Below, in pieces: positions 758 to 31,408 of a stretch of 38,618 nucleotides of DNA. The notes beneath the pieces were generated by a model. It was not told the DNA's origin. It was given only the letters and a program-made list of their open reading frames with translations, and did no database searches. Made by a program: the position numbers and the translations under genes. The stretch's first letter is position 1; each line of letters starts with the position of its first letter. Source of the stretch: a virus; the IMG/VR virus record IMGVR_UViG_3300038832_000015, positions 1 to 38,618 of that record. One strand, 5' to 3'.

Positions 758-3700
758 TTATTTATTACTAAGCTCACTCTTGTCTATATCTGCGTTGGCA
801 GCATACAGGTTAAACTTATACTTTGAAAGATAAGAAGGTCCTGGATGCTCAGTAGTTAGCTTAGTCATCATATACTGACCTTTCATTTTTTCACCTTCTA
901 CGTTACCATTCTTAACCACAAACAAGAACCCACCAGCCTCATTTTGTGCAGAGTAATCTGGGTTTTTTACAAAAGATATTTTTTCTTCAGTTATAAAATA
1001 AGGATAACCTAATAAAACAACTTTATTATCAGGTCTTCTTATGTACAACTTAATGTCTGTACTAATAACTTTAGAATTGTAAGTTATATCAGTATTTTTG
1101 TGACAAACAAATATATCTCCTACAGAAGGAAGATTATTTTGATACTTATCATCATAATTAACACTACTTATGTAGAATGGATATTGAAGGTCTTGCTCAG
1201 CTAACACATACTCAGCACCAACAAACATTTCTTTTGGAGTGATTCTTTTATTTAAAGAGTATTCGCTATTATTAATCGTTCCAAAAAACTCTCCTAAATT
1301 TGACCCAAAAGACTGACCTTGAACAAATCCAATTCCAGTAATTTCTGATCCGTCACCTTGATTTTCGTAGCCTATAAGGTCACCTCTATCTGCAGTGTTT
1401 ATAATTGACTCAACAAAAGGAATCATAGAGTAGTGAACCCCTTCTTTTGTTTTGTAATCTAAAACTTCCATGTGATTACCTTCAAGTTCAAGGTTAATAT
1501 TTTCAGACAAAAGTAATAAAGTATTAGAAACAACAGATAACACAATTCTTGTTACAAAAGTATATGAACCTGAGTCTTTGGTTGATCCAAAAATTCTAAC
1601 AACATCTCCTTTCTTTAAATTGTCAAGGAATTTAGTTCCATTACCTCTAACATAAGGCTCAGATCCAGAACCATCTTGATAATTGAAAATATCTCCATCA
1701 ACAAGTCTGTATCCAATACTAGTTCTTATAACGTTTTTATCTCCATTTTCTAATCCGTCACCCTGAATAACCTGTCCTGTATTAGCATACATAGATGCAA
1801 ACAGTTTAGCATCACCTTCTAAGCTAATAGCATTAAAAGACTTCACAGAAGAAGGTTCAGTATTAAATGGAAACTCTATGTGAGAATCAAATTGTTGACC
1901 ATAAAAACTATTATACTTACTATTTCCTTTAGTCGCCAAATAATCGTCATTGTTTATGTATAAATCCTGATAAAGTCTATCAGTCATATTGTGTTTATAC
2001 AGTCTACCTTCTTTAAATCCTATAAATTGTCTTCCAACTCTTCCATAGTAATCTGGATAGAAGTCATAAAAAGATGTCCATCTATTTGTTCTTTCGTTAA
2101 AAGCTAATGTTTGACTTTCATACAGAACTTGAGTCTCTTTGTTTTGGTACTTATCATTTGACGAATCCCACCTAACAAAGTCTTTGCCCCATAAATTTTT
2201 ACGCTCATCAAGTACATTTGGAAACGTTACAATATACTCATCATACTTAGGGTCGTATCCAGCAACAATACTAAAAGGATTTTCTATTTGACTTACTTCA
2301 GGATCGTTAATAACATACATCTCACCAATATCTCTAAAGTAATCTCTCATACCTTGGTCGGAAGTTACAGTAAGTCCATCAGCTGACAGTCTTAAAGCAG
2401 CACCTCTTTTAATATCAATAAAGTAAAATATGTTACCAAAACCTACAATACTCTCAGGTTGTAAACAACAACCATACTCACCTTTGTAAAGATTTACATA
2501 GTTGCCTATTACGTTTGTAGATAAAGAAACTAAGCCTTCACCAGATGCTGTATTAAGGATGTCTTTCTGAACTAACACTCTACCCACCTTACTCTCGTGG
2601 AATATAATTAAGTCGTTATCCCTCATTTTAAGAGCCTGTATAGAACCAAAGTCTTTGTTGTAATCAAAGTAAGGACTGTTAGCAGGGTTGAATGAAGACA
2701 AACCGTTAACAGAGCCTGTACTAGAGTAAGTCTCTGAAAAATACACACTAGCCTCTAACCTTCTTTCAGCAGCGTTGTTGTTTACAACGTTTATTCTACC
2801 TCTACTGTAGTGATTAGTTCTATGGAAATCGTTAAGGTAATAATCTTCAGGGAAGAATACTTCCTGAGAACTACCATCAGTTACTGTTGCCATATTTCTA
2901 GGCTTGAAATATATATCTCCACTAGATAGTCTTACAGTAGCAGGAATATCAGATATATAATCTCCAATTTCTTTATTGAAATTAAATGATTCACCTTGAG
3001 GACTGTCACCTCCATGAGTTCTAGACGATGTACCAGGATTTTTAATAGGTATTTTATCACCTATCTCGTAGTAAACCATAAGATCTTCATCTAAGTCTTT
3101 CTTAGGTCTATATATCTCTGCTATAAGTTTTTCATAACCACTACTTGTATAACTAAAACCTGAATGAGCTATACTAATAGTTCCTGACTCTGTTAAAACT
3201 GCAGAGTTTCCAGGGTCGTTTATTCTTAAGTAAAAACCTTCAGTTTCACTGTTAACATCTATTGGTGCATCTTCCCCATCAATATAAAGATCCATACCTG
3301 CAATCTCTAAATCTATATACTCTCCAAACGTCTGTCTACCGTTTCCAGGGTCAAAACTTATAAATCTAATTCTATCTCCAGCTACATAATTATAATCTAT
3401 CTGAGAGTTGTTGGCTTGATTGTAACTCCAATCTTTACCCTTTAAGGCTCCCATGTTTAGATATATCTGCTTATCGTTACTATCAGTGGCAATCTTAGCT
3501 CCAACAAACATCATCTGAATAAATTCATCTATTGTTGTGTTTCCTGTATAGTAAAACTGATAATTAGTTGCCCATCTAGGAGGTCTGTTGTATATATTAA
3601 TATCAACTGTAGATGGCGTGTTTGCAGGGGTTCCAGCAGCCTCTGTAAAGAACTTATTGTAAGGTCTTGTACCGTTTAAAGGAACATCACCAGGGGCTGT

Positions 3701-6700
3701 TATACCTTGATAATCTGGAGCAGTATTAACAAAAGAGCATCTGTTTGTCTCGTCAAAGTAAGCTACACCAAAGTTATGAAAAGCTCCTGTCTTAAAGGAA
3801 GATAAACCTCCATTACCTGACGTAAAGTACGAGGAGAGTTGATGTTGAAAATTATAAAAATCTCCACCATCCATACCCCCACCATTAACGTTTGAAGTTT
3901 CAAAGAGAATTCTAACAACACCAGCTCCTAGGTAACTAGCAGTTACCGCTTCAGTATTAGAGAAATATCCCATGTAGTAGTCACTAGCATTTGTTCCAAC
4001 ATTTGTAGACATAGCACATCCACCCTCAAAGTTTCCACTATTTATTTGAGAGACAACTTCGTTGCAAAACGAATCAATATCTCCAAATCCAGTCATGTTA
4101 TAATTCGCTACTAAACTACCAGCTCTTCTAGAAACTTCACTGTTAGCCCAGTTTTCTGCTTGAGTGAAAAAACCAAGAGATAAGCTTAACTGTTGTTGAC
4201 TGTCGGGAGACAAGTTTATAGAACTAAAATCAAGCTCAGGATCATAAGTACTAGGATTACCAGTACCTCCTAAAGTAAATTGAGAACTACCTCCAGCTCC
4301 AATATTTCCTTCATAAGCACCATTATATAAAATATTTACAGTCCCAGCCTCTAAAGCAGTGCCGTCTTCAAAAAAGTATCCTGAGTTAGCTATCAACCTA
4401 GTGTTGTCATACCCCTCTAAAACGTTACCATAAGCAAGTCTATTATTAGATAATATAGTTTGTGCTTTAGCAAGTTTTGGAACAACGTCATAAAGCTTAT
4501 CAGAATCTTTCTTATCAACAAAAGGATACGTTCCATTATTATAGAACTTAACACTAGATTGTATATCAGTAAATTGATATTCTGGTAAGTAACTATTCTT
4601 TACTTTTTTAAGGTATTTTATAAAGTTATTTGTTAAAGTATCAACTAAAACAAACTCTCCATTATTACCTTTTCTAGCAACAATCTCTATATCCTTTACA
4701 TCAGCAATAGTATCATCATAAGTTATAGTTATTTTATTTGCTATAGAACCGTAGTCTTCTGCGTCAACAGCAGAGTTTAAAGCAAACATAGGGTCTATTG
4801 CAACGTCTGATATAGGACTATAGGAAGTTTGCTCATCATCTTTGTGAACGTATCTATATTTAAATTGAAACACGTTATCAAGAATGTTGTTAGCAGCAAA
4901 ACTTACGTCTACTGATAAGTTTAGTGTAGGCCTATGGGTAGGTTGATGTTTTACAACGTCAAAGTATCTCATCTTATCCTCATAAGTACCAAAACTAATA
5001 AGAGGAGAGTAAGCATTTGTTAACCTAATATCAGAATAAGGATCAGCGTATAATATAACTCCATCTACAGGAGTGAAAGCTCCAGGCCAAGGAGAATTTG
5101 TAATTAAACCAACAGCATTTTCTCCGTTAAACTGAACAGGAAGGGCTGCAGTGTTATTACCCCCGTTATAAGGGGATGTTAAAGTAATAGTGTTTTGAGC
5201 TACAGAAGATATTTGATAGTACACAGGGAAGTTATTACTACTAGCATCTTGTATACCTATCCAGTCTCCAGCAAAATCATCTAGATTATGACCAGTACTT
5301 GCGTTAACTGTAGCACTACCATTAGTAACATTAAATGTTGTACCAGCAGAAGGTTTTTTAACGACTCCTAATATCTCAGAGTACCCATTTATACCTGTTG
5401 CTGCAGTGCCTGCTATAGCACCTAACTGAGCATATATATGATCACCTTCCTCAAAAGGATGAGAGTTTGGTCCAATGCCTATATAAACAGTTTCTAAACT
5501 ACTTTTATAATAAGCATCTTTAAAAATAAACCTAGGATTGTTTATATTTTTCTCGTTCTGCTTCGCAAGCTCAACGTTTATTTTTCTAGGTCTATTAAGA
5601 TTATCTGTAAAATAAAGTATATCATCAATTTTATTTACACCAGTAATAAGATGGTGTTCTGAAAAGTTTAATATATTATTTGGAGAGTTATCGCTAGAAG
5701 ATCTTCCATCTTGATAAACAGTCTGTATTGAATCAGTCATCAAATCATACTCTAGTATGCAATCATACTTTTTAGCAGTTCTCTCATTAAATATAAAATA
5801 ATAAACTCTATTCTTTGGCTTATCTTCATAAGAGCCAATACATTTATAACCACCAGCAACAATAGGTCTTTCTCTAGTTACTCCTGTGAGCTTATCTTTT
5901 ATTACTCTTCTAGCAGATCCGTTTAATATTCTTGACCTATTATATAGTGGACTTGAAAGTTGAGATCTAAGAGAAGAAGTTGAAGTTCTTTCGTATAGAA
6001 GGTTTATATTATAATTCGTTGTTGAGCTGTCAGTTCCTCCAACTTTTCTAATAGCAAAGTTTTTTATGTTACCAGTCCATCCACCAGCCTTATTTAAATC
6101 ATTAGTGGTAGCGGGATTTGGGTCAGGACTTCCTCCATATATTCTTATTACGTTTGCCGAATAGTTAGGACCAGTTGTTATAATAACTCTAGCTCTTCTC
6201 TGACCGCCTGGAGCAATACTATCTATAACAGCAACATTACTTCCAGGTTCTGCCTCAAACCTTTTGACGTTATCTCCTTCATATACATAATTCTGATCAG
6301 GAGTCCATAATGAAGAACTTGTTTGATTATAACTAGAACTTTCTATTCCACCGCTGGTATCACCAAGGTCAATAGAATATCTTCTACCATCAGCAATAGG
6401 CATCCAACAATGCCATGTTAACTCGTAAGTAGTGTTAGACTCTAAAGTAACAGACTTTTCTAGAACATCAGTATCAAATACAATATTACCAGTGCGATTT
6501 CTCCATCCCTCAGTAAAGCTATAATTCCAAGCGGGATTGCTTGGGTTTGTCGGAGAAGATGCAACAAATCCTCCATCATCGACTAAAGGAAAAATCAACT
6601 CATCAGCAGTACTAGTTAACAAATTAGTTTCTGATACTACGCCTACATTACCTCCCTCCGTATAAGATCCTGACACAAGATTAATGTGAGTTAACGACAC

Positions 6701-9700
6701 ATCAGAAATATTAGAAGCACTTACTATGTTATTATCGTTCATTAAGGCGAATTGCCAAGATGGATCTCCAGATAAAACAGATATAGTAAAGTGAAAACCT
6801 CTATCTAAATCTTCGTTGTTGCTATCAATAAATTCATAGTCATCTGCAATAGTAGGCCCAAGAATTGAAGACATAAACACATTGTCGCTATTAAAGTTTT
6901 TTATAGAAAGCTTTAATACTGAAGCGTCACCAGTTCCTGACCCTATAACCCTAATGTGATCATGAGGCCCTAATGAAGAATAAGTTCCATCAGAAATATG
7001 AGATTCAGTGTTATCAAACAGATGACAAGAATTTAAAATACCTGAGGAAAAATTTGACCCCTGATTAGGAACTAGCTCTATATACCTCGATTCATCAGGA
7101 ATTTCATGATTAATAACGTTTTCATTCCAATATAGAAGTCTTATTGTTTGACCTTGGGTAATATTAGCATAGTTTCCATGTCCATTAAAAGTATTTGTAC
7201 TTCCGTCAAGATCAACTTCCAAATCTACATCTCCATAAAGAACAAAACTAAACTCCTCGTTAACATTATTTGACTGAACAGGGTTTTGCTCTAAAGTTAG
7301 CAGTTGCTGTTGAATAATAGTTATAATTTCGTTAATGTTGTTAACGTTTTGAGTATGATCAGCGTTATATTGATTTATGTATTGCTGATCTACCGTACTT
7401 ATTAAACTTAAATCACCTAAAGCATCAGCTACAGTTGTTGCAGTAAAGTCTTGAGCACCATTACTTAGGTTTGTTAAAAGACCCAATAGTCTAATTATAT
7501 CTGAACTTACTTCTGTGTACATATCTGTCATGTAATCAGCAGATTCCATAGCAGTTGATACTAATTGAGTTATAAAATCAAAGTTATTGTTTCCTGCGTC
7601 AGTAATACCTTGAAGGTAAGCCTCGTCTTCAAGCACGTCAACTTGCTCTTGGGTGAAAAGGTTATCAGGATTAACTGATAGCTGACCTTCATTATATCCC
7701 AACAAGTAAGCCTGATCATTTACAGCTTGGTTATCAGAAGTAATGTCTACTGAAGCAGCACCGTCTGCAAAACCATTGTTATAATAAACATCTAAATCAT
7801 CTTCGGTATACATGTTTGCCATCGAAACAGCTTGCTGTACTATTAATTGCTGAATAGATTGATAATCAGTATTTACCTGATCAATTATAGTCTGAGTTAA
7901 TGTTACGTTATCAGGCAGCTTAACTAAAGATATATTATCTACAGAACCATCAAAAGATTGCCCATAAATATTTACTTTAACAGTAGATCCAGAAGGATCA
8001 GATGGTGTAAAAGCAAAGTTGTGTATAACAGAATTGCCTTGAATAATAGGATCTCCTACAGCAATAAGAGGATTACTACCCTCAAAAACTTCTCTTAATT
8101 TCACTTGAGGTGCTCCAGAACCAAAAGTATCGTATGAGAATATGTAATTCCCCTGAGTTAGAGTTGAAGAAAACATCTCAACATAGCTTGAAGATCCTGC
8201 CATAGTTTGATTTAAAGCGTATCCAGGATTACTAAGAAGTAAAGATTCGTTTTCAACTGACCAAGTAGTTTCCGAAGAGGAGTTGAATATAGTGACATTT
8301 TGAATACTATTATTGGCAAAGTCACCGTTAGATATAAGGTTAGTTAAAGGTAAGTTGGTAATAGCTGCATCTAAAGCTAACTGCAACGTCTCTGCAATCT
8401 CCTCACCATTAGCTATGGCAGCATCTAAATCAGCTTGAGATATACCATCCTCTGGGGTAGTGGTCTCAAGTTGACTTTGTAGATCATTAGCTATATTAAT
8501 TAAAGTTGTTAAGTTTTCTTGAGCAGCCGCTATATCAGGGTTTACTCCTTCTAACGTGGCAGTAGCAGCGTTGAGGTTAGTCAGTGCCGTTTCTAGCTGT
8601 TGGTTAAGTAATACTCCAGCATCATTGTATCCAAGCAGATATTGAGCATCAAGTTCTGCCTGTGCAGCTGCAAGAGCTTCTACGGCCTCTTGTGTTTCTG
8701 CATTCGCTGCAGCAAGTTGATCATCAAAATCTGCTTGTGCAGCAGCTGCAGCATCTGCAGCCGCACTAGATTGTGACTGAAGATCTGAAAGAAGAGATGA
8801 ATTAGCTGTAGAAAGATCACTCAAAGAATTGAGAAGAGTTTGAACGTGACCAGTCATAGCGTCAAGCTGAGTCTGGTACAAGGCGTAATCACCAAGTACA
8901 GTAGGTGACGTAATAGAGTACCCTCCAGGATTTGCAAAACCTTCGCCTTGACCAGCCGTAACTATACCCCCTACAGTTTGTTGCAGCTCTGTAATAGAAT
9001 CTACTAAAACAGAATAATCATCACTTACAGTACCAGCTGCTGAAACAAACCCAGCAATATCAGAGTAACTAGAGTTTGAGGATATATTAGAATCTATGTC
9101 AACAACAGCCTGAATAGCTTCTTCTAAAATTGCTATTTGCTCTGTTATATTTCCTTGAACCTCTTCATTAGAGAATGAAGCGTTATTAAGTAGGGTTATT
9201 AAACCTCCTAGCTCATTAGATATTTCATTAGCAGATGCTGATGCTTGCTGGTAAGCCTGAATTAAATTTTGAACACCACCAAGGGTAGTTGGCTGCACAG
9301 AACCTATAACTTCATTTACTGCACTTTGAATGTCTGACAACTCTTGTTGTGCAGCTTCATTTTGAGTTAATAAATCTTGATAATCATCTATACTGTCTGC
9401 ACTTATTTCTTGTAGACTAAAGTTATCAAGATGCACTTCACGAAAATTTTCATTTAATCTTATAGCAAATGTAGATCCTGTAGCTTCATAATAAACTATT
9501 TTTTGATCACCACTACTTACACTTCCAATGGTGATCCAACTTGATGTACCATCGTAATATGATAATTCACTAGTTTCTTCACTACCTGAGCCAAAAAATC
9601 CTGCAGAAATAGATTTTACTATATCAAATGAAAGTCTATAAAACTTTCCAGTTTCAGTAATGTTTAGTGATTCAGTCGAATTATTAAAAGCGGCAGCAGC

Positions 9701-12241
9701 TGTTATATGAATACTATTAACGCTACCTCTCGCCATCTTTAAAACTGAACTGCCTTCGGTAGTTGTAATTGCCGCCGATTCTGCAGTAACATTTACACCA
9801 CTTCCAAAATTACTAGGATCATTATAATGAATCCAACCATTAGAACCAGTATTTAAAGATTGAGTAAATGGAAAAGAAGATATTCCGCTTGAATCTCCAA
9901 AATCCCCATTTGTTAGTAAGTTCTGACCTAAAGCATTAATTACAGTAGTACTAGTGTTTTGAGCATTTTCTAAAGCCTCATCTAACTGAGATTGTAAATC
10001 TGCTATAATACTAGCTTGAGATGCAACACCTTCTGAAAAACCTTCTTCATAACTTCCATCTCCAATACTTTCTAAAACTTGAAACAAACCAGCTAATGTC
10101 TCGTCATTATTTTCAATAACAGATTCTATATTAGTTAAGCCAGAGCTTATATAGTTATAGCTACCTATAGCTTCAGCACCATCCATTTGAGATGCAGCGT
10201 TTAAACCCCCTATGGTAGCATTATACTCACTAATTACACTAGTAAGTTGTCCTTGAAGAGTTGATATAACTTCTTCTAATTGATTAATTTGTACATCATA
10301 ATTACCAATATCTTCAATAAGGTTGTCATAGTTAGATCCGTATTGAATAGTTTGAGTTAAGTTAACATTAACACCATCAAACCAAGCTAAATCTCTTTGA
10401 GATGTACCTGCTAGATAATCAGATATAGCAGTAGCAGCATCAGTACTAAAAACTAAATCGAAGGTATAAGAAGCTCTAAAATCTACTATAAGTTCAGTTT
10501 CAGGATTTCTAAATTGTCTTATTGACACGTTAGACATTACTATAGTATCTTGCTCTGCAAAATCATTAGCTACAATTAATTTAAATAATTGATTATTCCC
10601 TTGAGCCTCAAACTGAAAAGAAAAACTACTATTAGTAGAAGTTACTGCAGGACTAACGTTTTTACCATCTTGTGTTTGAAAAGTAATAGAATTTCCTGAA
10701 GATGAAAAAGTAGAAATATTTGCCTCTATTCTATAAACATCACCTTTAACTATCCCACCTAAAGGAACAGGAAAAAACACTTCTCTATTAAATGATCCTC
10801 GAACTGGGTTTTCTATAGTTATAGAATCATTAAGTATAGATACGCTAGAATTAGCGTCAATAAAATTAAGACCAGAATTTCGATAAGAACTAAAACTAGA
10901 TAAAGAATTGTAAGACTCTAAAACATAAAAATCACTAGCAGATGCTGTAGCACTAAGGTTTGGTGATCTAACAACCCCTAGTTGAGTGTTAACACCAAAA
11001 CTAGTTGCAACATTATTGTTTAATGTAGATATAGTGTGAGTTGAAGCAGAAGTTGATCCAGGAACAAGTATTTGAGTACTAAAAGGTACAGAAAGTTTGT
11101 CGTGAAGAGAGGCAGCTATTTCAGTCATATCTCCATCAAACTCAAAAGGATCACCACTATTAAAGTCACTCTCAAATTGATTAAACACGTTTTGAGCAAA
11201 AGGTATAGCCTCAACAGTACCATTACCATTTTCAACAACGCTAAATATTTTAAACTCGTTTTGAGGATCTTGAGGTGTGATAGGGTTTATACCAGTAATA
11301 GTCATTTGAACCTCTGTTATGGCCCCTTCTCCTGAAAAAGGATTATCAACACCTATAGGACCTCCATCTTCAGGGTCGATTGGAGCAACACCAAAACCTC
11401 CGTCTACAAGTATAAAAGAATTAAGAGATCCTATATTAATTGCTGGAATAATAGGATCTTCAGTTTGTTGTATATTTAGCTGACCATAAGGAGGGAAGTC
11501 ATCAACTGTATTACTCCAAAGAGCACCACCAGCAGTACCTACCTGATTTGCAGTACTCCAAAAATCAAGTTTAAAATCTAAATTTGGTTGATCAGCTATA
11601 ATCCTAACAATAATGGTTGCTGTACCATTCATCTGAACATTAGGGGTTAAAGGAATGTAATCAAGGGAATCATTATAAGTATAACTATTTATGTAGTAAA
11701 CTTCTGAATGCCCAGTCATTTCAGTTCCAGTATCAAAATGAACAAGAGGAATATTTTGACTGTGTAAACCGTTTTCTGGATTAAAATTTGCGTATATAGC
11801 AGCAGCAGTGTCTGTGTATATAAATTCAGCTTCAAAATCTCCATCGCTCCAAGTAGGAAAAATACCAGTAGGCCAATAGGCTAAAGAAATTAGATTAGGA
11901 TTACCAGGACTAACAAAAGTGTTGCGAATTTGATTAACTGCATAATAAGCTCCAGCATTCTGTCGACCTGTTAATATAATATCTTGATAATAATGAATCT
12001 GCGGAACAGGTGGCTCCTCTATAACCTCTTCGTCTATTAGCTCCACTATAGTTTCAGACTCATCTATAAAATTATAGTTAACCTCCTGAGTTCCCTCTAT
12101 GTTCTCTACAGAGCCTGAAGTACCATCAGATGAAGCAACATTTCTAATATTCTTTGCGTCTCTGTAGTCACCCTGTTTAATTAAGCGTGGTTCAGAATCT
12201 TTGTCCATACCACCCGTAAATACTCTCTTATCTTGTGCCAT
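758..12241 (-). CDS. Giant tail/neck structural protein (beta-propeller 'stabilization'-type core with ~2000-residue fibre-like insertion)
   Basis: The 3827-residue product fills about 30% of the window. The N-terminus (VFTGGMDKDSEPRLIKQGDY, residues 7-26) and the region from about residue 2085 to the end resemble the large beta-rich tail or stabilization proteins of Bacteroidetes and other marine podo-like phages. The segment DDILYFTDNLNRPRKINVE is typical of that core. Between residues about 55 and 2085 lies unrelated sequence: a beta-rich N-terminal part; at least three segments resembling galactose-binding/CBM4_9-like jelly rolls (about 455-590, 772-942 and 1300-1440, the last two opening NLLTNGDF and NLISNGDF and ending in VDNISL or LDNFSL); long Ala/Gln coiled-coil stretches (about 640-770, 945-1290, 1440-1660); and recurring YxxGxxxG motifs. 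A further jelly-roll-like part lies near 1880-2060. It probably forms tail or neck with host-binding extensions. Usual family members are, to my knowledge, much shorter. The role is inferred. Confidence 0.72.
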   Translation of the reverse strand: MAQDKRVFTGGMDKDSEPRLIKQGDYRDAKNIRNVASSDGTSGSVENIEGTQEVNYNFIDESETIVELIDEEVIEEPPVPQIHYYQDIILTGRQNAGAYYAVNQIRNTFVSPGNPNLISLAYWPTGIFPTWSDGDFEAEFIYTDTAAAIYANFNPENGLHSQNIPLVHFDTGTEMTGHSEVYYINSYTYNDSLDYIPLTPNVQMNGTATIIVRIIADQPNLDFKLDFWSTANQVGTAGGALWSNTVDDFPPYGQLNIQQTEDPIIPAINIGSLNSFILVDGGFGVAPIDPEDGGPIGVDNPFSGEGAITEVQMTITGINPITPQDPQNEFKIFSVVENGNGTVEAIPFAQNVFNQFESDFNSGDPFEFDGDMTEIAASLHDKLSVPFSTQILVPGSTSASTHTISTLNNNVATSFGVNTQLGVVRSPNLSATASASDFYVLESYNSLSSFSSYRNSGLNFIDANSSVSILNDSITIENPVRGSFNREVFFPVPLGGIVKGDVYRIEANISTFSSSGNSITFQTQDGKNVSPAVTSTNSSFSFQFEAQGNNQLFKLIVANDFAEQDTIVMSNVSIRQFRNPETELIVDFRASYTFDLVFSTDAATAISDYLAGTSQRDLAWFDGVNVNLTQTIQYGSNYDNLIEDIGNYDVQINQLEEVISTLQGQLTSVISEYNATIGGLNAASQMDGAEAIGSYNYISSGLTNIESVIENNDETLAGLFQVLESIGDGSYEEGFSEGVASQASIIADLQSQLDEALENAQNTSTTVINALGQNLLTNGDFGDSSGISSFPFTQSLNTGSNGWIHYNDPSNFGSGVNVTAESAAITTTEGSSVLKMARGSVNSIHITAAAAFNNSTESLNITETGKFYRLSFDIVKSISAGFFGSGSEETSELSYYDGTSSWITIGSVSSGDQKIVYYEATGSTFAIRLNENFREVHLDNFSLQEISADSIDDYQDLLTQNEAAQQELSDIQSAVNEVIGSVQPTTLGGVQNLIQAYQQASASANEISNELGGLITLLNNASFSNEEVQGNITEQIAILEEAIQAVVDIDSNISSNSSYSDIAGFVSAAGTVSDDYSVLVDSITELQQTVGGIVTAGQGEGFANPGGYSITSPTVLGDYALYQTQLDAMTGHVQTLLNSLSDLSTANSSLLSDLQSQSSAAADAAAAAQADFDDQLAAANAETQEAVEALAAAQAELDAQYLLGYNDAGVLLNQQLETALTNLNAATATLEGVNPDIAAAQENLTTLINIANDLQSQLETTTPEDGISQADLDAAIANGEEIAETLQLALDAAITNLPLTNLISNGDFANNSIQNVTIFNSSSETTWSVENESLLLSNPGYALNQTMAGSSSYVEMFSSTLTQGNYIFSYDTFGSGAPQVKLREVFEGSNPLIAVGDPIIQGNSVIHNFAFTPSDPSGSTVKVNIYGQSFDGSVDNISLVKLPDNVTLTQTIIDQVNTDYQSIQQLIVQQAVSMANMYTEDDLDVYYNNGFADGAASVDITSDNQAVNDQAYLLGYNEGQLSVNPDNLFTQEQVDVLEDEAYLQGITDAGNNNFDFITQLVSTAMESADYMTDMYTEVSSDIIRLLGLLTNLSNGAQDFTATTVADALGDLSLISTVDQQYINQYNADHTQNVNNINEIITIIQQQLLTLEQNPVQSNNVNEEFSFVLYGDVDLEVDLDGSTNTFNGHGNYANITQGQTIRLLYWNENVINHEIPDESRYIELVPNQGSNFSSGILNSCHLFDNTESHISDGTYSSLGPHDHIRVIGSGTGDASVLKLSIKNFNSDNVFMSSILGPTIADDYEFIDSNNEDLDRGFHFTISVLSGDPSWQFALMNDNNIVSASNISDVSLTHINLVSGSYTEGGNVGVVSETNLLTSTADELIFPLVDDGGFVASSPTNPSNPAWNYSFTEGWRNRTGNIVFDTDVLEKSVTLESNTTYELTWHCWMPIADGRRYSIDLGDTSGGIESSSYNQTSSSLWTPDQNYVYEGDNVKRFEAEPGSNVAVIDSIAPGGQRRARVIITTGPNYSANVIRIYGGSPDPNPATTNDLNKAGGWTGNIKNFAIRKVGGTDSSTTNYNINLLYERTSTSSLRSQLSSPLYNRSRILNGSARRVIKDKLTGVTRERPIVAGGYKCIGSYEDKPKNRVYYFIFNERTAKKYDCILEYDLMTDSIQTVYQDGRSSSDNSPNNILNFSEHHLITGVNKIDDILYFTDNLNRPRKINVELAKQNEKNINNPRFIFKDAYYKSSLETVYIGIGPNSHPFEEGDHIYAQLGAIAGTAATGINGYSEILGVVKKPSAGTTFNVTNGSATVNASTGHNLDDFAGDWIGIQDASSNNFPVYYQISSVAQNTITLTSPYNGGNNTAALPVQFNGENAVGLITNSPWPGAFTPVDGVILYADPYSDIRLTNAYSPLISFGTYEDKMRYFDVVKHQPTHRPTLNLSVDVSFAANNILDNVFQFKYRYVHKDDEQTSYSPISDVAIDPMFALNSAVDAEDYGSIANKITITYDDTIADVKDIEIVARKGNNGEFVLVDTLTNNFIKYLKKVKNSYLPEYQFTDIQSSVKFYNNGTYPFVDKKDSDKLYDVVPKLAKAQTILSNNRLAYGNVLEGYDNTRLIANSGYFFEDGTALEAGTVNILYNGAYEGNIGAGGSSQFTLGGTGNPSTYDPELDFSSINLSPDSQQQLSLSLGFFTQAENWANSEVSRRAGSLVANYNMTGFGDIDSFCNEVVSQINSGNFEGGCAMSTNVGTNASDYYMGYFSNTEAVTASYLGAGVVRILFETSNVNGGGMDGGDFYNFQHQLSSYFTSGNGGLSSFKTGAFHNFGVAYFDETNRCSFVNTAPDYQGITAPGDVPLNGTRPYNKFFTEAAGTPANTPSTVDINIYNRPPRWATNYQFYYTGNTTIDEFIQMMFVGAKIATDSNDKQIYLNMGALKGKDWSYNQANNSQIDYNYVAGDRIRFISFDPGNGRQTFGEYIDLEIAGMDLYIDGEDAPIDVNSETEGFYLRINDPGNSAVLTESGTISIAHSGFSYTSSGYEKLIAEIYRPKKDLDEDLMVYYEIGDKIPIKNPGTSSRTHGGDSPQGESFNFNKEIGDYISDIPATVRLSSGDIYFKPRNMATVTDGSSQEVFFPEDYYLNDFHRTNHYSRGRINVVNNNAAERRLEASVYFSETYSSTGSVNGLSSFNPANSPYFDYNKDFGSIQALKMRDNDLIIFHESKVGRVLVQKDILNTASGEGLVSLSTNVIGNYVNLYKGEYGCCLQPESIVGFGNIFYFIDIKRGAALRLSADGLTVTSDQGMRDYFRDIGEMYVINDPEVSQIENPFSIVAGYDPKYDEYIVTFPNVLDERKNLWGKDFVRWDSSNDKYQNKETQVLYESQTLAFNERTNRWTSFYDFYPDYYGRVGRQFIGFKEGRLYKHNMTDRLYQDLYINNDDYLATKGNSKYNSFYGQQFDSHIEFPFNTEPSSVKSFNAISLEGDAKLFASMYANTGQVIQGDGLENGDKNVIRTSIGYRLVDGDIFNYQDGSGSEPYVRGNGTKFLDNLKKGDVVRIFGSTKDSGSYTFVTRIVLSVVSNTLLLLSENINLELEGNHMEVLDYKTKEGVHYSMIPFVESIINTADRGDLIGYENQGDGSEITGIGFVQGQSFGSNLGEFFGTINNSEYSLNKRITPKEMFVGAEYVLAEQDLQYPFYISSVNYDDKYQNNLPSVGDIFVCHKNTDITYNSKVISTDIKLYIRRPDNKVVLLGYPYFITEEKISFVKNPDYSAQNEAGGFLFVVKNGNVEGEKMKGQYMMTKLTTEHPGPSYLSKYKFNLYAANADIDKSELSNK

Positions 12242-12247
12242 TGTAAA

Positions 12248-13450
12248 TTATATCTTAGGAGATTGCTTAAATGCCTTTCTAGAAACCTGCATAGCAGCTT
12301 CTTTATTAAAGTTCATCATTCTAGCTCTAGCTAATCTTTTTTCGTTGTAGTAAGCTCTTTTAGCCATTTGTTTTTCGTTAGCAGGAATGCCACGTTTTCT
12401 TTGAATATACTTGTAGTAAATATAACACCTCAAAGCTTCTTCGCAAAACTTATGAATCCTAGGTGCAGACAAATTACTACCCATCTGAATTAACTCTATT
12501 CCTTTAGATAAAACTTTACCTTGTTGGCTTGTAGCTCCAACTACAAAGTTTAGATTCCCATAATCATCAAGATTACCTTCAGGATTATCTCTTTTTGTAT
12601 TTTTATAAGTTACTATAGCAGTATTACCGCTACTACTAGCTGACATAATATTACTAAATGGGGATACACCAAATTTTTGATGACCGCTATTAATTACATC
12701 TGCAAATTTTCTAGCAATATCGCTAGCTGTATCTGAAGCAGAAATAACAATTTCAGTACTTGCAGTGCTAGATGATGCAGTTCCTCTAATAAATTTGTAG
12801 TCTTGATAGGCAACAAACCCAGTTGTAGTAGGATGAGGTATGCGAAAAGCAACAGATTGAGAGCCAGAAGCAGGGATATACAAGTTGCTATAATTGTTGA
12901 ATGTTAATTTTATTATATGATCAGCAGCTCTATTATCTTCAGTAATACTTGTACCATCAGAAATATACTCCATAAAAACCGTTTTACCAGATAAATCTGA
13001 AGAGAAATTTATAGTGTTATCATTTCTGTTTAACCTATAGTAGCCTAAAGAGTTTTTTCCTCCACCTACTCCGAACTTCTTACCTATATCTGTGTGGTAG
13101 TAAGGATTATTCTCATCATAAGAGCTACTACCAACCTCAGAGGACACGCTTGAATCTAAAGATAGATTAGAATCATAACCTAACGACACAAAATTTCCGT
13201 CATCATTTTTATATCCAACCTTCAATAACTTAAGGTAATCATCAGGTAGGGTGCATTGAAGTGTTGTAGAATCTACAATAAGTGTAGTTGTCTTAACACT
13301 TTGTTCAACATCAAACGTAAGCTCTCTTAAGCCTTGCATTGCTAGTAATCTTAATTGATAGATTTGAGCCTCTTTATCATAAGAGGTGTCATCCATCATT
13401 AACTGAAAGTCGTTTACTACTTGATCTATATCTGTATAATCCATTGCCAT
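12248..13450 (-). CDS. Head-tail connector / neck ring protein (tail tubular-like)
   Basis: A 400-residue product. The N-terminal half (about 1-120) has an alpha-helical start, including the stretch IYQLRLLAMQGLRELTFDVE, then a beta segment with TLPDDYLKLLKVGYKNDDG. This layout is typical of neck/ring proteins (gp4- or tail-tubular-A-like) in podoviruses and crAss-like phages. Residues about 185-310 are a beta-rich Ser/Thr-rich section that looks inserted. The C-terminal about 70 residues are basic and helical. It lies 2 bp from the 241-residue neck gene upstream and 6 bp from the giant tail gene downstream, so the three are probably co-transcribed from the promoter at 14201. Position between capsid and tail genes supports a connector role; the exact ring is not resolved. 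Confidence 0.65.
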   Translation of the reverse strand: MAMDYTDIDQVVNDFQLMMDDTSYDKEAQIYQLRLLAMQGLRELTFDVEQSVKTTTLIVDSTTLQCTLPDDYLKLLKVGYKNDDGNFVSLGYDSNLSLDSSVSSEVGSSSYDENNPYYHTDIGKKFGVGGGKNSLGYYRLNRNDNTINFSSDLSGKTVFMEYISDGTSITEDNRAADHIIKLTFNNYSNLYIPASGSQSVAFRIPHPTTTGFVAYQDYKFIRGTASSSTASTEIVISASDTASDIARKFADVINSGHQKFGVSPFSNIMSASSSGNTAIVTYKNTKRDNPEGNLDDYGNLNFVVGATSQQGKVLSKGIELIQMGSNLSAPRIHKFCEEALRCYIYYKYIQRKRGIPANEKQMAKRAYYNEKRLARARMMNFNKEAAMQVSRKAFKQSPKI

Positions 13451-23930: not shown

Positions 23931-25490
23931 CTACTCGTATAAATCTCTAGACATTTTTATAAACCCAACCTGCATACCTCTACCTGATGCACTTAAAGCT
24001 TGAATTCCCACAAAAGGCAACAAATCTATATCATCAGTCATAATTAAAGATTTTTTCTTAGTATTAGTTTCAGTCACACCACCAGCAGTTGTTGTTGTTG
24101 GCGTAGAGGTTAATCCATATTGAGTATTATCTACAAATACACTAATTCTCCTAGTCTCATCAATAGAAATTCTCAATTTATACACAGTGTTAGCAGCAAC
24201 TGCTATACCTAAATCTGTTATATAATCTGTGCCACTTACACTATACACAAAATGAAGATTACCGTTAGTTGTTAAAGCTCCTAAATCATCATCAGTAGCA
24301 TATAAGAAGTAAGCTTGATTTGCATCTGTAGCATAAGCACCAACTTCTGTTAGCTTTAATCCTGCCCATATAGCGGAATTAGTTATAGTATTTGATGTAG
24401 ATATAGCACAATCAAGTTGTATTCTATTTTCTGTACCAAAAGGAACAGAAGACCAAGCTGAAGAATCAACAGTAGTTGGGATTTCAGTCTCACCATCCCT
24501 AGTTGTTAAAACGGTAAAATCGTTGTCAGTAGTTCCTGTAACTAATTTAATTCCAGCAAAACCATTAGTAGGTCTTCCAGCATTACCGCTTACTTGAACA
24601 GATCCAGAGTTAGTACCACCCAAAACAAAATTTTGATTAGGAGTAATATAAGGATCTATTACAAAAAACAATTTAAACACTTGATCGGCAATATCAGTAC
24701 CATTAGTACCGATACGTATTTTACAACTACCATCAGCTACATCAAGAACCATAACGCTAACTATAGCATTATCAGCTGTATTTACACTTGAATCTACTAT
24801 GGTTACTAAAACTTGAGATGTAGCTCCGTATATATGATCATTGTTAAAAGTAAACTGTACAGTATCTGTAGCAGCTAAATCAACTGATTGCATAGTTATA
24901 ACACCATACTTAGCATTCAAAGTTACAGTAGTTGTAGCACTCGAAGATTGAGTTACTTGAGTGTCTGCTATACCTAAACTTGGAACTTTTTCAAAATACT
25001 CTACAAGCTCAAATCTATTATCTGATTGAGATACAGTACCACTTACCTTAAGATTACCCAAGCCATCAAGAACCATTGATTCAGTTCCAGATGTAGAAAA
25101 AGATATAGCATCATTAGAGTGGTCGTATGATATTCTACCAACATCGTTATCACTAGAATCACCAAAATATATATTACCTGAAGCTGAAGATCCAGAAAGT
25201 ATAGATAATCCAGAATCACCAGAATTTTCTAAAACAATTTGATTAGCAAAAGCACTTGCAGTAACAGAACCAGCACTAGCAGTATAAACATGAAATAAAC
25301 CATCTGGAACTACTCCTCCAGTACCTACACCTACTTTTAAAAACTCTACTTTATCTGTAGATAATTTCATAGATGTAGAATTACCATCTCCAGTTTCAAC
25401 ACCTTTTAAGGTTGTATCAGAAATCTCAGAAGAAGTCTGAAGTATTCTTTGGTATGTCTTAGATATTGCTTTACCTTTTAGTGAACCCAT
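23931..25490 (-). CDS. Tail fibre / receptor-binding-like structural protein
   Basis: A 519-residue Ser/Thr/Gly-rich protein with no signal peptide. The N-terminal part (1-60) is polar. Residues about 105-152 carry a segment of the type IYFGDSSDNDVGRISYDHSN ... MVLDGLGNLKVSGT, a repeating 'value-at-time' motif common in marine phage tail fibres. A beta-rich region follows (about 165-300). The C-terminal third (about 310-519) resembles a lectin/concanavalin-like sandwich, containing WAGLKLTEVGAYATDANQAY and the late segment YKLRISIDETRRISVFVDNT. It sits immediately upstream of the GroES/terminase group and directly downstream (1 bp) of the holin gene. It is one of two fibre-like genes; the other reads the opposite way at 34925. 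Receptor binding is inferred. Confidence 0.6.
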   Translation of the reverse strand: MGSLKGKAISKTYQRILQTSSEISDTTLKGVETGDGNSTSMKLSTDKVEFLKVGVGTGGVVPDGLFHVYTASAGSVTASAFANQIVLENSGDSGLSILSGSSASGNIYFGDSSDNDVGRISYDHSNDAISFSTSGTESMVLDGLGNLKVSGTVSQSDNRFELVEYFEKVPSLGIADTQVTQSSSATTTVTLNAKYGVITMQSVDLAATDTVQFTFNNDHIYGATSQVLVTIVDSSVNTADNAIVSVMVLDVADGSCKIRIGTNGTDIADQVFKLFFVIDPYITPNQNFVLGGTNSGSVQVSGNAGRPTNGFAGIKLVTGTTDNDFTVLTTRDGETEIPTTVDSSAWSSVPFGTENRIQLDCAISTSNTITNSAIWAGLKLTEVGAYATDANQAYFLYATDDDLGALTTNGNLHFVYSVSGTDYITDLGIAVAANTVYKLRISIDETRRISVFVDNTQYGLTSTPTTTTAGGVTETNTKKKSLIMTDDIDLLPFVGIQALSASGRGMQVGFIKMSRDLYE

Positions 25491-26969: not shown

Positions 26970-28067
26970 TTAAAATATTACATAATTAAGACCAACACTA
27001 AAGTTGTGCCACTGTCTGTTCCAATACTTATTGTATCTTCCTTCCACAAATATACCAAAACTTTTATTAAATCTATAACCATAAATTAAACCTAAAGAAT
27101 AGTCAACCCATTGGCCTTCATTAAACTTATGATAAGAGTAAGTATTTTTAGTGTCTAAGTGATATGGCATGATGTTTCCCCAAGTATGAAACCAGAAGTC
27201 TTTTGTGAAATGATAATAGTCCAAACCCATGACAAAAGAATACTCAACTATATTAGATATAGAGTTTCTTTGTTTTTCTACATAATTATTTATAACTTGT
27301 GGTATAACAACTTCTTCCCACACTTCTTGACTGCTGGCTACAAGAACTCCATCAGGCGAAAAGTATTCCCCCCCTAGGGTGATGTTGTACCCCTCTTGAA
27401 GAGCAAGGTATGTATAATGAAGAGTCCCATTATCTAATACCCAGTCTTCTAAAGGATTAAAGCCATAAGGTTCGGCAAGTCTTTGTACTAAACCCCCATT
27501 TAATGAAAGCTTACCGCTCCTTATCTTTAATCTAAATCTTTCTGATGCTTCAAAATATTTTATATCTGCAAAACCATCCTCAAGGTACTCTACTTTACTC
27601 ACCCATTTATCTGCAACATATCTTACAAAGTGATGATGATTAGTGTAGTTTACCCCTAAACGTCTTACAAAATCAGCCTCGAACAAATATTCAAAACCAT
27701 CAACTCTACCAATGGTTGCGGCATCAGAATAAGAGTTTTCCGTACCATTATAAAAAGTGTTGGCTCTGTTCTCATATCCAAATCTTTTAATCTTTCTAAT
27801 ACCAATAGATATATTATAATCAAATGGTGTTTTAATAGTTTCTTCTTCTAAAGATCCAGATGTTACAGACCATATTTGATCATCACCTAATGATGTACCA
27901 CCATTAACTGCAGCGTAAAATGTAGAGTATTTAAATATTTTATGTAAATCTTGAGCTTTACAAGACGGAGCAAATAATCCAAAAAACACAACATAAAATA
28001 AAACTAGTATTACCCAAAATAACAAATACCCAACATCAGGTGTAAAAAATTCTTTTAATCTTTTCAT
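26970..28067 (-). CDS. Predicted outer-membrane beta-barrel protein
   Basis: A 365-residue protein with an N-terminal signal/anchor (hydrophobic about residues 13-33, likely cleavage near CKAQ at 36-39). The remainder alternates amphipathic strands rich in Tyr/Trp/Phe, for example FEYLFEADFVRRLGVNYTNH, ISNIVEYSFVMGLDYYHFTK and VDYSLGLIYGYRFNKSFGIF. It ends in FSVGLNYVIF, the C-terminal aromatic typical of outer-membrane barrels recognised by BAM. It overlaps the T9SS protein gene by 4 bp, suggesting translational coupling. Roles to consider are receptor masking (superinfection exclusion), outer-membrane weakening at lysis, or assistance to the T9SS substrate. A lipoprotein is possible, but the Cys36 context (APSC) is a poor lipobox. 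Confidence 0.65.
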   Translation of the reverse strand: MKRLKEFFTPDVGYLLFWVILVLFYVVFFGLFAPSCKAQDLHKIFKYSTFYAAVNGGTSLGDDQIWSVTSGSLEEETIKTPFDYNISIGIRKIKRFGYENRANTFYNGTENSYSDAATIGRVDGFEYLFEADFVRRLGVNYTNHHHFVRYVADKWVSKVEYLEDGFADIKYFEASERFRLKIRSGKLSLNGGLVQRLAEPYGFNPLEDWVLDNGTLHYTYLALQEGYNITLGGEYFSPDGVLVASSQEVWEEVVIPQVINNYVEKQRNSISNIVEYSFVMGLDYYHFTKDFWFHTWGNIMPYHLDTKNTYSYHKFNEGQWVDYSLGLIYGYRFNKSFGIFVEGRYNKYWNRQWHNFSVGLNYVIF

Positions 28068-31000
28068 TTCTTTAATATGCTTTTAGTAGTAGTTACACCA
28101 TCATATGTTAAACTAAAATAATACACTCCTGAATTTAATAAACTCATGTTTAATTGATTTAAACCTTTTTTAGTATATCTTTCTTTTACGTGTATTACTA
28201 CTTTACCTGCTGAGTCATAAACAACAACCTCTACCTTTCCGTTAGTTAGTATATTTATATAGTCAGTTACGGGAACAGGATACATAACTACGTTATGTCC
28301 TCTCAATAAATCTCTAGTATCTAATGGGCTATCCCAGCTACAGCTCCAGTATAATTCTTGACATTTATCGTCCCACTCATTATTACAACAATAAGGATCT
28401 ACCATTAAAACCCAAGCGTAACATGTGTCATTCAACCAATATGGATTACCAGGACCATCAACACAACCTGCGTCATACAAACAACTACCATCCTCTGTAT
28501 TAGAAAACTCGTTATAATTATGTGCCATCTGATCCATACAGCCTTCCACAATGTCTATACAAGCATCATTATCTGTGTTAGCTGTTTCGTCATAATTAAA
28601 CGACTCTGGATTAGTGCATCCTAATACAATATCAATACAAGAGAAGTCCTCTGTGTTAGCGTTTACACTATAATTAAACGCTGCAGGATCTGTACAACCA
28701 TAGACTACTTCAATACAAGATTGGTTGTCTGCATTTGCAAGAACATCGTAATTAAAAGCAGTAGAGTCCATACACCCATATATAGGAAGAATGCAAGTAT
28801 TATCATCTGTATTTGCTTCAGCGTTGTAATTTAAGGCGTTAGGATCATCGCATCCATATATAAATGATATGCACGATTGATTATCTGTATTAGCTAGAGG
28901 ATTGTAGTTAAACGCTTCACTATCTGTACATCCATATATTACATTAATACAAGAACCATCATCTGTGTTTGCATCTTCGTTATAATTCAACGCAGAAGGA
29001 TTAATACAGCCGTAGTCAAAAGGAATGCAAGATTGATTATCGCTATTTGCAAGTGGGTTATAATTGTACATTGTATTATCTATACATCCGTATATAGGTG
29101 TAATACAAGACCCGTCATCCAGGTTAGCATCTAAAATATAATTTAAAGCTATAGGATTTGTACACCCATAAACTATTCCTTCACAACTCTGGTTATCAGT
29201 ATTAGCTAAAGGATTGTAATTATAGGCTGAAGAATCAGTACAACCGTATATTATATTTATACAAGACCCATCATCAGTATTTGCGTCCTGATTGTAGTTC
29301 AAAGATTGAGGGTTTATGCATCCGTAAATATATTCTAAACAGGTTCCGTTATCTGAGTTAGAAAGAGGATCATAATTAAATGCAGTAGAATCACCGCACC
29401 CAAATACAAAAGAAATACAATTATTGCTTTCTGTGTTTGCTTCTTCATTATAGTTATACATTGTTGCGTCCATACATCCAATAACAACTTCTACGCATAA
29501 CCCGTTATCTGTATTTGCTGCTATATTAAAATTAAACATGCTTGGATCCGTACAACCTTCTATAACATCAACGCAACTTTCATCGTCTGTATTAGCTAAA
29601 GGTTCATAATTAAAAGATGCCTCGTTAGTACATCCATACACGTATGGTATACAATCATCGCTGCTATCTGTAGCTTCAGGCATAAAGTTAATTGATAAAG
29701 GATTAGTGCAACCAACAACTTCAAGTTCATCACAAACTCCATCTAAATCAATATCATTAAGACAATCTCCGTTACAATCTTCGTAAACTTCTACTGGATA
29801 AAAACAACCACCATTGTCTGCGTTAGCTTCTTGGTCATAATTACAAGCCTCAGAATCAGTACATCCTAAATAAATACAATTACCATCGTCTATATTAGAT
29901 TCTGCATTATAGTTCCAAGCCTGGTTGTCCATGCAACCATAAACTATAGCTTCACAACTTTCATCATCAACATTAGCTTCTGCATTATAGTTAAACGCTA
30001 AATCGTTTGTACAACCTAATACAATATCAATACATTCTTCAGATTGAGTGTTAGCAAGAGAATCGTAATTTAAAGCAAAAGGATCTAAACAACCTTCTAC
30101 AACTGGAATACAGTAGTCCCCACAATATGGCATAACACTATATACATGCCAAAAAGGAGCTTGATAAGCTTTTAATATTCCCGCCCCATTATTCATAAAA
30201 GGATTATTTCCCGCTTGTATTGTTATAACATCATTAGAGTTTATTAGTCTAAAAGAATTATGCATTGTTTGGAACTCTACTTCAGCTTGAGTCTGCTGAG
30301 GTTTCCCTATCTCAAAATAATAAATATCTACAGGTTTATCAGTGGATAAAGTTATTTCAAACTCTTGATAATGTTCTCCTTCCCCCACAGTATAAGTTCC
30401 TATAGATACACCACCCTGAACTAAACCTATATAGGAGTCTCCCCATCCATCACCTGCGTCATCCTCTATAATTAAAGTGTAATCACAAGATGGGATTATA
30501 TCATTTAATGTAGCCTCAGGATTGTAATTAAATGAAGATGGATTTAAGCAACCTACAGTGTGTGGGTTTGTACAACTTCCATCATCTACATCTGCAAAAG
30601 GATTATACTCTATATAGTCAGGATCCATGCAGCCATAAACTACAGGTATAGGGCAGTTTTCTAATTGTATAACTCCTGAATATGCTGCGTTACCAAAACC
30701 TGCATCAGGTAAAGACCATAAAGTATCTAAAACCCCGCAAGGTTCTAAGTCACCTAAAATAACAAAATTACCATCTACACCTCCGCTATATAACGACCCT
30801 TGCATACCGTCACCGTATGTATCACTTATTATAAGTTCCACACCAGATTCTGGAGCACACAAACTATAAGATATTGTAGTATTTGCTTGATTGTAATTAT
30901 AAGTGTTGCCTAGAACACTTTCTACTGGTTGTCCTGTAGATATATCAGTAAGAATCCACCCAGTTTCGTTTGGATATTGATCTAGAGTAACTTCTAAAAT

Positions 31001-31408
31001 CATTCTAGCCTCACCATCGCTACACTCTGTATTTATACAGCTACCATTGTCAACCTGCGCCCAAGGGTTATAATTGTTAGCATCTTCATCTGTACAACCC
31101 AATACTGGAAACTGACAAGAATTATTATCAACATTGGCTAGAGAGTCGTAATTAAGAGCTAAGGGATCTATACAACCTAACACTGTGTCTATTGGTGCTT
31201 CACAGTCACCTGCGTCATAACCAAATTCTTCACAATTAAAATCTATAGGGTTACCGTTCCATGTATATGAACCATCGTCACAAAAACCATCACTTAACCA
31301 GTTTTCTGGAGATGGTGTTCCAAAACAGTCAACAAATGTGCTGTCTTGAGAAAATGAGTTAATAGTAATAAATAATAGTAGGTAATTTAATTTCTTTAAC
31401 ACTTCCAT
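28064..31408 (-). CDS. Secreted Cys-pair repeat protein with LNR-like domain and type IX secretion sorting domain
   Basis: A 1114-residue protein. A signal peptide (about 1-20, ending SFSQ) is followed by a Notch/LNR-like segment (Cys28, Cys43, Cys59, Cys69; WLSDGFCDDG...FGYDAGDCE). There are 24 copies of a roughly 25-residue unit of type GCxDxxAxNYNxxANTDDGSC, two Cys each. Two copies precede, and two follow, a beta domain with DTYGDGM (about 131-250). Another domain with DDAGDGWGD spans about 318-430. Twenty nearly contiguous copies run from about 434 to 977, interrupted once by a Ca-binding-like DIDLDGVCDELE. A Cys-rich linker leads to a T9SS type A C-terminal domain (about 1035-1114: MYPVPVTDYINI, VYDSAGKVV, LLNSGVYYFSL, KSILKK). 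It should cross the outer membrane through the host T9SS. These domains are typical of flavobacterial secretomes, so acquisition from a host is likely. The start overlaps the upstream gene by 13 bp. Confidence 0.85.
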   Translation of the reverse strand: MEVLKKLNYLLLFITINSFSQDSTFVDCFGTPSPENWLSDGFCDDGSYTWNGNPIDFNCEEFGYDAGDCEAPIDTVLGCIDPLALNYDSLANVDNNSCQFPVLGCTDEDANNYNPWAQVDNGSCINTECSDGEARMILEVTLDQYPNETGWILTDISTGQPVESVLGNTYNYNQANTTISYSLCAPESGVELIISDTYGDGMQGSLYSGGVDGNFVILGDLEPCGVLDTLWSLPDAGFGNAAYSGVIQLENCPIPVVYGCMDPDYIEYNPFADVDDGSCTNPHTVGCLNPSSFNYNPEATLNDIIPSCDYTLIIEDDAGDGWGDSYIGLVQGGVSIGTYTVGEGEHYQEFEITLSTDKPVDIYYFEIGKPQQTQAEVEFQTMHNSFRLINSNDVITIQAGNNPFMNNGAGILKAYQAPFWHVYSVMPYCGDYCIPVVEGCLDPFALNYDSLANTQSEECIDIVLGCTNDLAFNYNAEANVDDESCEAIVYGCMDNQAWNYNAESNIDDGNCIYLGCTDSEACNYDQEANADNGGCFYPVEVYEDCNGDCLNDIDLDGVCDELEVVGCTNPLSINFMPEATDSSDDCIPYVYGCTNEASFNYEPLANTDDESCVDVIEGCTDPSMFNFNIAANTDNGLCVEVVIGCMDATMYNYNEEANTESNNCISFVFGCGDSTAFNYDPLSNSDNGTCLEYIYGCINPQSLNYNQDANTDDGSCINIIYGCTDSSAYNYNPLANTDNQSCEGIVYGCTNPIALNYILDANLDDGSCITPIYGCIDNTMYNYNPLANSDNQSCIPFDYGCINPSALNYNEDANTDDGSCINVIYGCTDSEAFNYNPLANTDNQSCISFIYGCDDPNALNYNAEANTDDNTCILPIYGCMDSTAFNYDVLANADNQSCIEVVYGCTDPAAFNYSVNANTEDFSCIDIVLGCTNPESFNYDETANTDNDACIDIVEGCMDQMAHNYNEFSNTEDGSCLYDAGCVDGPGNPYWLNDTCYAWVLMVDPYCCNNEWDDKCQELYWSCSWDSPLDTRDLLRGHNVVMYPVPVTDYINILTNGKVEVVVYDSAGKVVIHVKERYTKKGLNQLNMSLLNSGVYYFSLTYDGVTTTKSILKK
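28480..30105 (-). repeat. Tandem ~75-bp coding repeats (20 GCxDxxAxNYN units)
   Basis: Twenty diverged copies of a unit of about 72-78 bp lie head to tail within the T9SS protein gene, with one longer interruption near 29700-29800. At protein level Gly-Cys, Asn-Tyr, Ala-Asn and the final Cys are most constant. At DNA level copies are clearly related but not identical, e.g. alternating units with NPLANTDNQSC and NEDANTDDGSC endings near 28860-29300, suggesting two-unit duplications. Confidence 0.85.

Follow-up and report, generated by a model that had tools for sequence, protein, structure and literature searches.

A fibre-like module, most likely receptor-binding, inserted in the crassvirus-type muzzle protein of a phage clade

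The window analysed here, a 38,618-nucleotide stretch of a viral record (IMGVR_UViG_3300038832_000015), contains one uninterrupted minus-strand ORF of 3,827 residues, whose sequence raises the question of which tail protein can accommodate some 2000 extra residues and what these residues do. In crAss-like phages, DNA release is controlled by the muzzle. We propose, with a probability of roughly 68%, that the ORF specifies a crassvirus-type muzzle carrying a fibre-like adhesion module, acquired in a single insertion by the ancestor of a clade, so that the module would project towards host glycans while being joined to the gate.

By its sequence, the product is a crassvirus-type muzzle protein. 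Residues 5-67 match positions 4-67 of the Pfam family crAss_MUZ (PF25731) with an E value of 5.9e-10 (38.4 bits; cut-off 27), and the same N-terminal match was obtained for 14 of 18 clade members. A second family, crAss_MUZ_C, is matched at 28.8 bits (curated cut-off 27), a match that is stronger in the relatives phi40:1 and elemoC than in the window muzzle, and the core matches phrog_14478 (virion structural protein) with an E value of 5.5e-79. The putative propeller, IG, and crass regions of the core were assigned by homology. The window is syntenic with, and similar in sequence to, Cellulophaga phage phi38:1 (Callevirus) across the genes for a GroES-like protein, TerL, portal, gp092, the major capsid protein (MCP), gp094, gp095, gp096, muzzle, and gp099, and the muzzle gene directly follows the ring protein(s) in a portal-MCP-ring-muzzle order (a gene-by-gene match to phi38:1, with two ring proteins); the ORF adjoining it has a weak CrAss_Ring_1 match. 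The nearest named relatives belong to the Pervagoviridae and Pachyviridae, which are classed outside the Crassvirales in sequence records, and relatives of the core were absent from the bacterial and archaeal genome contigs searched. The muzzle (or nozzle) of ΦcrAss001, gp44, lies at the distal tip of the tail (PMC10172136), and the sequence-only reading, which had placed a stabilization protein at the neck or tail base, has to be corrected on this point.

That reading had also claimed the first 50 or so residues as a piece of the conserved core, which is borne out by the homology of residues 1-54 (the tab) to the muzzle family. Besides the Pfam match, BLASTP of the N-terminus found phi40:1 (E 1.8e-5), ctfjg026 (8.6e-6), and phi13:2 (3.7e-4), and a weak HMM match relates residues 1-54 to residues 12-53 of gp44. 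When the window muzzle was aligned with five relatives, their residues 1-55 corresponded to its residues 1-54 and their residues ~64-174 to its residues 2133-2240, the N-terminal match being weak in two of the five (elemoC and Panino). About 9 residues in insertion-free relatives correspond to about 2,078 in the window muzzle, and the two muzzle parts of relatives without the insertion are joined by about 10-30 residues. The core is thus split to the extent that had been proposed, with the insertion located at residues 55-2132 and the core resuming at residue 2133 rather than at about 2085 (Table 1). Since residues 1-54 fall on gp44 residues 12-53 and a block HMM places the first core block on residues 109-152, the insertion point corresponds to gp44 residues ~55-66, a link to gp44 that is based on block HMMs and Pfam. 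The N-terminal part gave zero relatives by tblastn against cultured phages and zero in a single-sequence pattern scan of viral contigs, and the core was used as query instead; a profile search of PDB sequences using alignment A1 also gave zero matches.

Table 1. Features of the muzzle gene in the window, with residue ranges of the product and supporting evidence
Feature	Residues	Position	Strand	Evidence
Muzzle protein gene with insertion		758..12241	(-)	ORF translation; crAss_MUZ; crAss_MUZ_C; phrog_14478
Tab at the muzzle N-terminus (homologue: gp44 residues 1-54)	1-54	12080..12241	(-)	BLASTP, HMM, Pfam
Insertion	55-2132	5846..12079	(-)	Alignment with relatives lacking the insertion
Predicted beta-rich base	~81-415	10997..12001	(-)	AF2; alignments A4 and A6; scan
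Predicted jelly roll 1	~438-600	10442..10930	(-)	AF2; Foldseek (CBM4/CBM22/CBM16-like)
Predicted coiled coil 1	~638-778	9908..10330	(-)	AF2 helices; heptad periodicity 641-680
Predicted jelly roll 2	~803-946	9404..9835	(-)	AF2
Predicted coiled-coil stalk 2	~948-1296	8354..9400	(-)	948-1000 and 1235-1296 modelled; 1001-1234 helix propensity and periodicity only
Predicted jelly roll 3	~1302-1441	7919..8338	(-)	AF2; Foldseek
Predicted helical stalk 3 with YxxG[YFI]xxG-type motifs	~1450-1652	7286..7894	(-)	AF2; periodicity 1561-1600
Predicted beta domains with conserved Cys/His-rich stretch (CHLFDNTESHISDGTYSSLGPHDH)	~1662-1861	6659..7258	(-)	AF2; A5 consensus
Predicted core-adjacent jelly roll	~1926-2086	5984..6466	(-)	AF2
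Border motif NGSARRVIKDKLTG	2107-2120	5882..5923	(-)	Split relatives: N-terminal gene stops right after equivalent motif
Muzzle core (rest of propeller, IG, crass regions)	2133-3827	758..5845	(-)	Homology
crAss_MUZ_C match	3442-3479	1805..1918	(-)	Profile match

Separation of the two conserved parts is not general to the family: when the first core strand was located with a strict marker, 79 of the 102 tabulated muzzles had at most 40 residues between tab and core. Fifteen intact records carry long insertions of 1,381-2,363 residues, and a sixteenth (L124) encodes a 5,135-residue protein with about 3,340 inserted residues, its extra length being due mainly to coiled-coil repeats of the VTPEDG[IV][ST]QADVDA type. 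The insertion lengths leave out a spurious low-scoring hit (L097) and three split genes (L013, L014, and L104). A quick maximum-likelihood tree of the core blocks unites the long-insertion records in one clade with an SH-aLRT value of 100, outside of which the insertion-free L025 and L032 fall, and the simplest reading is that the insertion was gained once. Most of the clade members are uncultured, and they are relatives of phages that infect marine flavobacteria. A module inserted in a tail protein, as had been suggested, is therefore found here, and it is not peculiar to this phage but clade-wide and variable in length. It is a real structural novelty within a known protein family, and no earlier description of such a muzzle insertion was found in a literature search of incomplete coverage.

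Shorter insertions of ~116-209 residues at the same site were seen, with the strict marker, only in L033, L036, and L114. Many other medium insertions (80-440 residues) had been taken to lie at this site, an assignment that was rejected because the sequences put most of them ~20 residues further, inside the first core block. Insertions of ~80-440 residues inside this block occur in L030, L034, L066, L071, L073, L077, and others, on the Cellulophaga-phage side of the tree. The apparent break in the muzzle of L015 was caused solely by masked Ns.

In the three split relatives (L013, L014, and L104), the muzzle gene is divided into two ORFs precisely where the insertion ends on its C-side. Their first ORFs (1,501, 1,526, and 1,625 residues, respectively, from stop to stop) begin with the tab, which in L013 and L014 is 75-78% identical to that of the window, and end right after the motif closing the insertion (GAKRFVKNKI, GAPLRMTKII, GARRMTKNNI). 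A TAA codon is followed two bases later by the ATG of the second ORF (TAAATATGGC or TAAAAATGGC), which starts with a leader different in each relative before the conserved CIG-YEDKP stretch resumes. With these leaders present, a sequencing frameshift is unlikely. According to the quick tree, L013 and L104 are sisters, whereas L014 falls with L009 and L018, which are unsplit; two or more splits would explain this most simply. The occurrence of the two parts as separate ORFs might suggest that, in the window, a fibre gene and a muzzle gene were wrongly joined by assembly or by a read-through artefact. However, the N-terminal gene of the split pairs begins with a muzzle tab and the C-terminal gene has none, and at least 15 other independent records show the same single long ORF, which practically rules out an artefact. 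As the tab is kept on the first ORF and is absent from the core ORF, it is probably used in trans, and the tab-bearing fibre polypeptide would then assemble with the core in trans.

The insertion was modelled in segments with AlphaFold2 (AF2), which gave a mean pLDDT of 59.8 and a pTM of 0.32 for residues 1-1000 and of 52.7 and 0.34 for residues 1230-2240. Because the models are weak, the domain borders in Table 1 are approximate. The low-confidence models show a base of beta structure and four or more jelly-roll or beta-sandwich units, which are connected by long helices. Among PDB structures, the best well-superposed Foldseek matches of the first part are CBM4, CBM22, and CBM16, and those of the second part include a hyaluronan-binding module (4d0q, E 1.9e-5) as well as CBM22, 61, 29, and 6; the first part also matches the central fibre of a mycobacteriophage (E 5e-6), and phage tail proteins account for many of the named hits in the viral structure library. 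The chain of coiled coils and CBM-like jelly rolls perceived from the sequence thus finds low-confidence support in the predicted structures. The CBM matches suggest a resemblance of fold between low-confidence models and these modules, and a jelly roll alone is no proof of sugar binding. None of the curated Pfam glycan-binding families scored above cut-off in the window's insertion; the insertion of L012 contains two curated Lcl_C domains (E 1.8e-19). A likeness to insecticidal Cry/Vip proteins in Foldseek was dismissed, as it amounts to a shared jelly-roll/helix topology with an rmsd of 20-44 Å over the whole chain.

The insertion most likely serves as a receptor-binding fibre that is either part of the tail gate or docked onto it, and a fibre or adhesion module is its best reading. 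A catalytic role was also considered, in which the jelly rolls would be accessory to an unrecognised domain, for example in the Cys/His-rich residues 1662-1861, making the module a depolymerase or other enzyme that degrades capsule or matrix. Although the Cys/His pattern is conserved and CBMs are generally found alongside enzymes, we regard this role as quite improbable: family searches detected zero catalytic families, and Foldseek gave no well-superposed single-domain enzyme match. As an observation in its own right, the Cys/His-rich stretch is possibly metal-binding.

Another possibility is a structural sleeve that either encloses the tail barrel as a cage or collar or makes the tail longer, with receptors being bound by other fibres such as the products of the two other fibre-like ORFs in the window (23931-25490 and 34925-36643). 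It would fit the beta base, which is conserved within the clade as the best conserved section of the insertion (a scan with the base alignment A6 found zero occurrences outside the clade), and an insertion of ~155 residues that the adjacent ring protein also carries in most members. The distal part, however, is hypervariable, both in length and in sequence, and this holds also between L007 and L024, which have near-identical cores and differ mainly at insertion residues 600-1300 and at the core C-terminus, and the Lcl_C domains of L012 are of a known adhesin type. We therefore consider a sleeve unlikely, albeit less so than an enzyme. The window muzzle and L010 share 94% identity over the tab, 68% over the core, and 47% over the insertion; as judged from such comparisons, the insertion is diverging faster than the core. 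The GC content of the insertion (0.34-0.37) is like that of the core (0.34) and of the window elsewhere (0.35) and therefore gives no sign of a recent import.

Under the favoured reading of a gate-joined adhesion module, a single insertion in the clade ancestor would have entered the loop that connects the tab to the first strand of the core. The ΦcrAss001 muzzle forms a hexamer at the tip of the tail, and a similar assembly would place six copies of the module around the tip. The conserved beta base would pack against the muzzle, and the coiled-coil stalks would hold the CBM-like jelly rolls outward to host surface glycans. As the chain enters and leaves at one loop, the stalk probably either runs out and back or is built by the six subunits as an oligomeric bundle. 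Because the module is joined to the gating propeller covalently or via the tab, a receptor signal could be passed directly to the gate through this junction. In the three split relatives, the module is encoded as a separate tab-bearing polypeptide whose tab would dock onto the core in trans, which suggests a new mode of fixing a host-recognition fibre to a DNA-release gate. More tentatively, the gate of some members may be completed in trans by the ~54 first residues of a separate fibre protein, which would dock by complementing part of the gatekeeper, thereby coupling receptor binding mechanically to opening; the window form would then be the same machine in one chain.

Comparison with known systems places the module further. 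ΦcrAss001 gp44 (PDB 7qok, 7qol, 8ckb; PMC10172136) is of the same family at both ends and occupies the same position after the ring proteins, but its 1,371 residues include only about 12 where the window muzzle has ~2,078. Bayfield et al. reported length variation of muzzles only in the crass and IG2 domains (PMC10172136), whereas that of the window muzzle lies at the N-terminal loop. The Callevirus phi38:1/phi40:1 muzzle (gp097; 1,324 residues), which in phi40:1 was identified as a virion protein by MS/MS, is homologous to and syntenic with the window muzzle and lacks the insertion; phi38:1 also encodes an S74 (endosialidase-chaperone) protein, gp085, and a putative tail protein upstream. Like the split relatives, Baltivirus phi18:3/phi13:2 makes its muzzle as two polypeptides (gp114 and gp115 in phi18:3, both detected in virions by MS/MS), but the break and, in phi13:2, adhesin-type Ig/cadherin domains lie near the C-terminus rather than at the N-terminal loop. 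This second site was found split or filled in L003, L005, L026, L029, and L132 (phi18:3), with a Big_9/cadherin domain in phi13:2. Fibres and spikes of short-tailed phages, for example ΦcrAss001 gp22 on the THA/THB hubs, combine coiled coils, glycan-binding-type domains, and rapid modular change, a combination that the insertion appears to share. These are, however, separate trimers docked on a hub, whereas the module described here would be inside, or tab-docked to, a hexameric gate protein, and its chain departs from and rejoins the muzzle at a single loop, which sets it apart from ordinary trimeric tail fibres.

A fibre-like module in the muzzle chain together with its natural splits makes the link between receptor binding and gate opening directly testable. 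The combination of tab, border motif, and core offers a marker with which host-recognition modules could be found in uncultured members of this phage group, and annotators should be cautious, as a single-gene annotation of "structural protein" conceals such modules.

The sequence-only reading had further held that no separate fibre gene would be needed. This is in part consistent with ten clade contigs, in which an S74 endosialidase-chaperone tail spike of the phi38:1 type was not found, but the 38.6-kb window fragment holds the two ORFs with fibre-like sequence and no family name mentioned above (23931-25490 on the minus and 34925-36643 on the plus strand), which may encode separate fibres of the head or tail. 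In the ring protein encoded upstream of the muzzle (ORF 12248-13450), the extra residues relative to phi38:1 gp096 lie at 12461-12952 (-); L023, L103, and L124 are the clade members noted as lacking this long form. Finally, an ORF at 28064-31408 (-) encodes 1,114 residues with an apparent N-terminal signal peptide, about twenty repeats of the type GC[TM]DxxAxNYNxxANTDDxSC, and a type IX secretion sorting domain (Por_Secre_tail, E 1.1e-9), so that its product is apparently exported by the host type IX system. It is adjoined by an ORF for 365 residues with a hydrophobic N-terminus (26970-28067, minus strand), and a shorter homologue of the repeat protein is encoded at 47810-50221 of contig G009.
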